Below, one piece after another: positions 6,967-21,745 of a DNA stretch of 64,000 nucleotides. The notes under the pieces were generated by a model. The model searched no databases, was not told the DNA's origin, and worked only from the letters and a program-made list of their open reading frames with translations. Both the position numbers and the translations under genes were made by a program. The stretch is from Nitrosopumilus zosterae (GTDB taxonomy: Archaea; Thermoproteota; Nitrososphaeria; Nitrososphaerales; Nitrosopumilaceae): the NCBI RefSeq assembly GCF_025998175.1, contig NZ_AP026695.1:248001-312000 (forward strand), written 5' to 3'. Position 1 is the first letter of the stretch. The number at the start of each line of letters is the position of its first letter.

Positions 6967-7860
6967 ATGGGTAAAGGCTATTCCACTGAATCAATTAGAG
7001 AAAAACTGATTTCATCTTTGGAAGATTCTGTTACTGGAATGTCTGGAGTAGAGCTTTCTAAAAAAGTTGGAGTCAATAGAATTACCATGTCCAAATATCT
7101 CAAAGTTTTTGCAGCTGAAGGATTGCTTCGACAGAAAAATATTGGAAATGTTACCTTGTGGTTTTTAGAACCAGGTCAAGAATCTTTTAATTTCCCTGAT
7201 GATTATTTCAAAATATCTCCTATCTTCCTAGATTATTTAGTAAAGGGTACTGATGAGCAAACTCATTCTTTAATTCGGAATTGTTTACATTCGGGGGCAA
7301 CCACTGATCGTTTAATTCTTGAAGTAATTTTTCCTGCAATTGATTATGTGCAAAATTTGTATGATGCTGGAAAAATCGGAACTGCAGAACTTAGTCTCTT
7401 AAAAACTACCATTTCAAAATCATTTCAAATTTTTAATCAAATTCCGATAGTATCTGATCCAAAAAAGAATGTGGTAGTAATTGCAGCTGATTCACAAAGT
7501 ATCCTGATTTCAGAAGCTGCCTCTGCTGCATATCATTCAGATAGCTGGAAGGTTTCTCATCTGGGAGATATGTCTTTCGCAATTGATGTCTTGTTTGATT
7601 TAGATTTTCAAAAATTGATTGGAAAAATATGGAAACAAAAACCTGGAATGCTGTTAGTAGTTGTATTCTCAAATTCTGATGAAGGACTAAACTTTTTTGC
7701 AAATTCCATTAATCCAATTAAAGACAAATCTGGAAAACATATGAAATTAGCTCTTTGTGGTAAAATATCCAAAAAATCTAAAATTAACTCTGATCTTGTT
7801 TCTGAAAAACTTGATGATATTTTACAATGGTCTAAAACAGTTTCTCAAAATTTGAAATAA
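6967..7860 (+). CDS. HTH regulator with degenerate B12-binding-like domain
   Basis: The N-terminal winged helix-turn-helix (about residues 10-65; VELSKKVGVNRITMSKYLKV) is followed by a helical segment PAIDYVQNLYDAGKIGTAEL that resembles the cap domain of cobalamin-binding modules. A Rossmann-like domain then starts VVVIAADSQSIL and ends near LALCGKI. The layout matches B12-dependent sensors, but the DxHxxG cobalamin-ligating motif is absent, so the ligand may differ or be lost. I place the start at 6967 because a TATA box (CTTTATACAA, 6936-6945) lies 26 nt upstream; an in-frame ATG at 6925 lies before that box. It may regulate neighbouring genes. Confidence 0.7.
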   Translation: MGKGYSTESIREKLISSLEDSVTGMSGVELSKKVGVNRITMSKYLKVFAAEGLLRQKNIGNVTLWFLEPGQESFNFPDDYFKISPIFLDYLVKGTDEQTHSLIRNCLHSGATTDRLILEVIFPAIDYVQNLYDAGKIGTAELSLLKTTISKSFQIFNQIPIVSDPKKNVVVIAADSQSILISEAASAAYHSDSWKVSHLGDMSFAIDVLFDLDFQKLIGKIWKQKPGMLLVVVFSNSDEGLNFFANSINPIKDKSGKHMKLALCGKISKKSKINSDLVSEKLDDILQWSKTVSQNLK

Positions 7861-20967: not shown

Positions 20968-21121
20968 TGGGGCCGACCGGAATCGAACCGGCGACCTACG
21001 GGTCACTACAGCTCCAAACTTACATCATCCGTGAGTCAGTTTAGCTTAGTTAACCTTTGGAGCCCTTAGCGGTGATCTTTTTCGTAGACACTGTCGCCCT
21101 ACCAGGCTAGGCTACGACCCC
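20968..21121 (-). tRNA. tRNA-Trp(CCA) with two introns
   Basis: The acceptor is GGGGTCG/CGGCCCC and the T-arm GCCGG-TTCGAAT-CCGGT. Folding requires removal of two introns. The first is non-canonical, 27 nt, in the 5' anticodon stem (21092-21066): helix GGCG/CGCT separates bulges ACA and AAG, leaving stem ACGGG. The second, 53 nt, is canonical after position 37 (21056-21004). The mature anticodon arm is ACGGG-CTCCAAA-CCCGT, anticodon CCA. The mature RNA is 74 nt with discriminator A. The large intron contains TTTGGAGC, an exact 8-nt complement of GCTCCAAA of the anticodon region. Confidence 0.9.
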
Positions 21122-21211: not shown

Positions 21212-21745
21212 ATGATCAAACCAATTTACTTTGCATTAGGCGCAATTCCTGTAATTGTGGCGCTTTTAATTTCAGTTCCACTACTTACGAAAAATGAAAT
21301 TCCTATATCTGCTGCACATTCTTTTGATAAAATTGATATTGAATATACAAAACATCAATTAAAGAAAATATCATATGGGATTACGGAGCGAGTTGGAGCC
21401 CAAAAAACAGAAATTCTTTCTATAAAAAATGATGGTGATGTCAAGTATTCTGTAACAGAACATGGATACATCCAACCTGATATTCGTTCAAAACTGGATA
21501 AAGACAAACTGGATAAACTAAAAGCCTTGATCAAAGAAACTGGTTTTATTGCAATTCCTTCTGAATCATTCTCTATACTAGAAAATGTAACCGAGTATCA
21601 AAAATCAAATGTGAAAATTACTCTCAATGGACACGTAAATCAAATTCATTGGCCTGAACAGAATGCAACATCTGATTTTATTCCTCCAATAATCACTATG
21701 GTCGAATCAGAACTTGATCAGATAATTTCTCAAATTGGTGAATAG
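21212..21745 (+). CDS. Secreted or membrane-anchored hypothetical protein
   Basis: The 177-residue protein has an N-terminal hydrophobic segment (about 5-27, FALGAIPVIVALLISVPLL) that is a signal peptide or anchor. The rest is a soluble domain with KYSVTEHGYIQPDIRSKLDKDKL and a helical C-terminus. I recognise no family. It lies 30 nt before pdxS on the same strand and could be cotranscribed. Confidence 0.65.
   Translation: MIKPIYFALGAIPVIVALLISVPLLTKNEIPISAAHSFDKIDIEYTKHQLKKISYGITERVGAQKTEILSIKNDGDVKYSVTEHGYIQPDIRSKLDKDKLDKLKALIKETGFIAIPSESFSILENVTEYQKSNVKITLNGHVNQIHWPEQNATSDFIPPIITMVESELDQIISQIGE

Follow-up and report, generated by a model that had tools for sequence, protein, structure and literature searches.

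A tRNA-Trp gene with two BHB-type introns in Nitrosopumilus zosterae and its intron-free counterpart at the same locus

Introduction

Noncanonical tRNA introns are a described feature of the Thaumarchaeota, for which the tRNAscan-SE 2.0 survey counts 107 (PMC8450103). The same survey states as a general principle that, in case of closely set introns, one has to be removed first to allow formation of the next BHB. The thaumarchaeal splicing endonuclease is described in a review as an alpha2beta2 enzyme and is associated with non-canonical introns (PMC4090602). A second related system is given by the tRNA-Trp intron of Haloferax and Pyrococcus, which guides the modifications Cm34 and Um39 (PMC7994747).

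Here we describe a tRNA-Trp gene of Nitrosopumilus zosterae, located in a window of 64,000 nt (contig NZ_AP026695.1, positions 248,001 to 312,000). A sequence-only reading of this window had proposed a tRNA-Trp(CCA) with two introns at 20968-21121. Sequence and orthologues confirm this gene at exactly these coordinates, on the minus strand from 21121 to 20968. The overall picture, i.e., the only tRNA-Trp gene found in the genome, carrying two archaeal BHB-type introns and spliced at 28/29 and 37/38, is in our judgment very probably correct.

Results and Discussion

Anatomy and identity of the gene

The components of the gene are compiled in Table 1. The acceptor stem reads GGGGUCG/CGGCCCC, the D arm GCCU...GGGC, the anticodon loop CUCCAAA, and the T arm GCCGG-UUCGAUU-CCGGU, followed by the discriminator A73 at 20968. 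Removal of the 53-nt intron at 37/38 (21056-21004), correctly recognized before as canonical, creates the CUCCAAA loop and provides the CCCGU partner strand. With both introns excised, the predicted product ACGGG-CUCCAAA-CCCGU is obtained together with a complete cloverleaf sequence.

Table 1. Coordinates and basis of assignment of the features of the tRNA-Trp gene (window positions) and of two further tRNAs of the same genome
Feature	Position	Strand	Basis
Exon 1, nt 1-28 (acceptor 5' strand, D arm, A27 C28)	21093..21121	-	sequence; D arm identical in relatives
Intron 1, 27 nt, AGUGUCUACGAAAAAGAUCACCGCUAA, noncanonical site 28/29	21066..21092	-	sole stem-restoring excision site here
GGCG (nt 23-26), BHB 1 central helix 5' strand	21095..21098	-	predicted fold, conserved pairs
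CGCU, BHB 1 central helix 3' strand, within intron 1	21068..21071	-	predicted fold, conserved pairs
Intron 1 inner hairpin GUGUCU / AGAUCAC with loop	21072..21091	-	predicted fold; first inner pairs compensated in relatives
Exon 2, GGGCUCCAA (nt 29-37), anticodon CCA	21057..21065	-	sequence
Intron 2, 53 nt, canonical site 37/38	21004..21056	-	excision product; orthologous in relatives
Intron 2 box D'-like CUGA	21036..21039	-	kept together with the C' box in 53/62 distinct genes
Intron 2 box C'-like GGAUGAUGU	21022..21030	-	alignment of orthologues
Intron 2 UUUGGAG, complement of anticodon loop CUCCAAA	21012..21018	-	covaries with nt 37 between families
Intron 2 GUAG, proposed BHB 2 central helix 3' strand	21006..21009	-	G-Y-R-G kept in orthologues; thermodynamically poor
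Exon 3, nt 38-73 (anticodon stem 3' strand, variable loop, T arm, acceptor 3' strand, A73)	20968..21003	-	sequence
L219, seeming D-arm-insert tRNA	G000:C1:59733-59798		by eye, tRNA-Arg(CCU)
L220, seeming D-arm-insert tRNA	G000:C1:189353-189409		by eye, tRNA-Met

Neither ARAGORN nor the Rfam model RF00005 detects the gene, and a permissive Rfam search of the region returned only weak tmRNA-like matches, which arise through the shared T arm. The failure of the standard searches would be expected of a decayed pseudogene whose work is done by a different tRNA-Trp. However, no other candidate was found in the one-contig genome of 1.775 Mb, in which the gene fully matches only itself and none of the RF00005 tRNAs elsewhere reads CCA (three anticodons were read by eye). 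Furthermore, seven other genomes of the genus carry this gene with 100% identity over 153 nt despite differing flanks, and its exon stem covaries among orthologues. We therefore regard decay as extremely improbable. The two-intron gene also occurs in genome G126 (L121).

Two further tRNAs of the genome, tRNA-Arg(CCU) and tRNA-Met as judged by eye, are missed by ARAGORN; in both, the D arm seems to be interrupted by an insert (Table 1).

Comparative evidence for intron 1

Shuffling of the 32-nt segment, with the flanking GGCG and CCCGU held fixed and success defined as a Watson-Crick stem after some excision plus a BHB at that place, gave both together in none of 300,000 shuffles; 0.5% of them permitted restoration of the stem alone. 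More decisive against chance is the comparison across orthologues. Throughout the order, excision at 28/29 yields a 5-bp anticodon stem in all 49 distinct parsed orthologous genes bearing intron 1; this site is unique except in the two sequences of family f14, for which an alternative site one base off pairs as well. According to the pattern search, intron 1 is present in 70 of the 250 genomes of the order (counted from the rows as 91 pattern-matching genomes minus nine without intron 1 minus twelve intron-free).

Pairs of the anticodon stem covary across the splice junctions and span both introns: G29-C41 is replaced by A29-U41 in L130-L133 and L137-L139, and A27-U43 by U27-G43 in L140-L141. 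Among the 35 distinct contexts the length of intron 1 ranges from 16 to 29 nt. Its inner helix shows compensated changes (G-C/A-U and U-A/C-G), and the central helix GGCG/CGCU hardly varies. An empty site is provided by family f10, which keeps the 37/38 intron and lacks intron 1, so that ACAGG directly abuts CUCCA. Identity, boundaries, BHB, and mature stem are supported by the comparison of sequences. Intron 1 is an archaeal splicing-endonuclease (BHB) intron of known kind.

Structure of BHB 1 and proposed splicing mechanism

The bulges ACA and AAG proposed around the helix GGCG/CGCU are recovered in the predicted minimum-energy fold of the unconstrained precursor, except for G29, for which the fold shows pairing with the D loop. 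In this fold, GGCG is paired with CGCU, ACA forms the bulge, and GUGUCU/AGAUCAC the inner hairpin; on the 3' side, AA stays unpaired and the nucleotides from G29 on pair with the D loop. The arrangement of a 3-nt bulge, a 4-bp helix, and a 3-nt bulge is conserved; it is a relaxed BHB, the strict outer helix being absent or replaced by pairing with the D loop. In the mature tRNA, GGCG provides the 3' strand of the D stem, and since both pairings are mutually exclusive, formation of the D stem would have to await release of the intron 1 motif.

The following course of events may be proposed. In the precursor RNA, the D-stem strand GGCG would pair with CGCU, which is located shortly before intron 1 ends, and the intron hairpin would be stacked inside. 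We infer that the splicing endonuclease cuts at AC^A and AA^G and that subsequent ligation joins C28 to G29; formation of the D stem and of the complete anticodon stem would be possible only after this step. Intron 2 would be cut at 37/38 within a relaxed BHB. Two PF01974 proteins are encoded in the genome and likewise in all six relatives checked; by eye, one has the Tyr/His/Lys pattern and the second seemingly lacks it. The presence of two such proteins fits an alpha2beta2 splicing endonuclease.

Order of splicing

In the proposed BHB 2, GUAG of intron 2 faces C32 U33 C34 C35 with a C34/U mismatch, and its register is fixed because the 3-nt bulge UGA precedes CCCGU. It had been argued that intron 1 splits the anticodon stem supporting this second motif and that splicing therefore probably must be ordered. 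The first part holds for two of the five pairs, which are indeed separated, but GGG29-31/CCC39-41 remains unsplit by intron 1, and therefore the second motif can still be supported.

Each BHB was forced in a thermodynamic folding model and its cost taken relative to the modelled ensemble. Under this model, which ignores K-turns and tertiary structure, fails to reproduce the cloverleaf of the mature tRNA, and thus weighs little in either direction, the costs in the intact precursor are 0.2 kcal/mol for BHB 1, 14.2 for BHB 2, and 16.7 for both, which corresponds to a mildly anti-cooperative coupling of about +2.4. Once intron 1 is removed, BHB 2 costs 11.4 kcal/mol, i.e., 2.8 less, so that this mismatched motif lies 11-14 kcal/mol above the modelled ensemble. 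The median coupling over all orthologues amounts to +1.9; in families f2 and f14 it is close to zero or below. As a proof of order the model was rejected due to the misfolded mature tRNA and the mixed sign of the coupling across families.

An obligate order, in which BHB 2 is unrecognizable until intron 1 has gone and an intermediate retaining only intron 2 exists but one retaining only intron 1 does not, would agree with the nearly free formation of BHB 1 in the intact precursor, with the 2.8 kcal/mol gained for BHB 2, and with the general principle for close-set introns (PMC8450103). Due to the intact GGG/CCC segment, the co-folding of both motifs at +2.4 kcal/mol, and a coupling that is zero or below in f2 and f14, we nevertheless consider it rather unlikely. 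What is left of the original argument is that, according to the model, removal of intron 1 first would be mildly favoured; that it must come first finds little support here.

Intron 2 resembles a C/D guide RNA

In 53 of the 62 distinct genes, intron 2 has the same layout: CUGA, 4-10 nt, a box (R)RAUGAUGU, 3-4 nt, and a complement of the anticodon loop. This complement tracks the loop, since UCUGGAG occurs with CUCCAGA in f2 and f3, and UUUGGAG with CUCCAAA in the gene of the window; where UUUGGAG is combined with CUCCAGA, pairing proceeds through G-U. In f2, f3, f14, and f17, the nucleotides 5' of CUGA are complementary to nt 38-43 and place C39 at N+5. Between L140 and L141 this guide for nt 39 differs by a compensated pair (GGGUAA/UUACCC vs. 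GGGUCA/UGACCC).

It is tempting to speculate that intron 2 acts here as a methylation guide for Cm34, and perhaps nt 39, like the introns of Haloferax and Pyrococcus. Conservation of the D'/C' boxes and the loop complement, covariation of the latter with nt 37, and the D' guide with its compensated change in the families mentioned above speak for such an activity. On the other hand, the guide for nt 39 is lost in the family of the window gene, in which neither nt 34 nor nt 39 falls at N+5. Terminal C and D boxes were not recognized by eye at the ends of intron 2 in the alignment of orthologues, and for C34 the N+5 rule would require a D box at the place occupied by GUAG. A working guide in this gene is hence doubtful in our opinion. 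Intron 2 resembles a degenerate intron-encoded C/D guide RNA rather than a demonstrated member of this class, and its D'/C' element and loop complement would most simply be explained as remnants of the guide RNA encoded by archaeal tRNA-Trp introns.

A search for rRNA targets of the D' guide gave none above chance (one 9-bp match compared to 2.45 such matches in shuffles). Matches of up to 10 bp in the other tRNAs of the genome follow conserved D-loop words. The idea that intron-free genomes encode the guide elsewhere, as a trans-acting copy, was rejected, as only pattern matches were obtained, none of them consistent between genomes.

Two alleles at one locus

Among the 35 genomes of the genus covered by the pattern search, the two-intron gene is present in 19, an intron-free gene matching the same pattern in 11, and another intron-free variant in 5. 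Two-intron and intron-free genes alternate at one locus (L026-L032, L069-L074, L118-L120, L123, and L145-L148 against L001 and L004-L016). Wherever the flanks are readable, both alleles are situated between an aconitase gene and the homologue of ORF 21212-21745. After splicing, the two-intron gene shows 12 differences from the intron-free gene over 73 sites, and eight of these differences form four compensated pairs. The proximal upstream sequence differs according to the allele.

In trees of the flanking proteins the alleles interleave. The tree of 58 rows shows 6 changes and that of the 27 well-covered rows 5; at least 4 changes are forced by starred branches in each tree. Monophyly of the intron-free rows is rejected (p-AU 0.00028 in the flanking-protein tree). 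Within one allele type, the compared tRNA genes are 98-100% identical, whereas the aconitase flank reaches 79-92%. Selection on the tRNA sequence would account for the identity of the exons, but it leaves unexplained why either block reappears in a scattered manner. Repeated replacement of the whole tRNA-Trp gene by homologous recombination is the simplest reading suggested by these observations. Recombination of the flanks themselves, or an ancestral coexistence of both copies, is a possible cause of the interleaving as well. We lean only slightly towards block switching within the genus by horizontal homologous replacement, by which both introns are gained or lost together and not singly. 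A partial literature search yielded no publication on such switching of tRNA-Trp alleles.

If block switching holds true, the introns are dispensable as a set, and close relatives represent a natural comparison with and without them. Possible roles of the introns in guiding modifications, in the order of splicing, or in protection against integrating elements could thus be addressed by comparing wild strains. The main value of the locus lies in this comparison of two-intron and intron-free tRNA-Trp genes at the same position in closely related ammonia-oxidizing archaea.

Inserts and further introns at related loci

At L178 (G009), approximately 5 kb separate the 3' end of tRNA-Trp (tRNA at 1976-2132) from a 30-bp exact repeat of this end at 7200-7229 (both positions on the reverse complement of the locus), a layout like that of an att-flanked island. 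The ORFs of this insert are DNA-methyltransferase-like, possibly of restriction type, and transposase-like; an integrase was not seen by eye. At L179 (G013), approximately 7 kb of inserted genes, including tyrosinase-like and response-regulator-like ones, are located downstream of tRNA-Trp (1926-2082), between this gene and the aconitase gene, with no recognizable repeat of the tRNA end.

The tRNA-Trp genes of other genera seem to contain additional introns near nt 8-10 (L022 of G054 and L050 of G083), in the D arm (L093 of G045 and L094 of G160), and in the T loop (L025 of G051 and L040 of G163). Within the order, the tRNA-Trp gene looks like a hot spot for introns.

Comparison with known systems

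Compared to the guide-encoding introns of tRNA-Trp (sR50 of Pyrococcus and the Haloferax pre-tRNA-Trp; PMC7994747), intron 2 shares the canonical site, the D'/C' boxes, and the loop complement, and families related to that of the window gene also share a D' guide aimed at nt 39. The window gene itself differs by unrecognizable terminal C/D boxes, by the loss of the nt 39 guide, and by a spacing that does not suit C34.

With the noncanonical and multiple BHB introns of archaea (PMC8450103 and PMC4090602), the gene has in common a site outside 37/38, BHB junctions, the co-occurrence of a canonical intron, and a host endonuclease of the two-subunit type; there is no difference in kind. The gene thus belongs to a known archaeal kind, and its intron 1 may well be included in the tRNAscan-SE 2.0 survey. 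As a two-intron archaeal tRNA gene it is ordinary; compared to this known arrangement, the switching of allele blocks is the less expected part.
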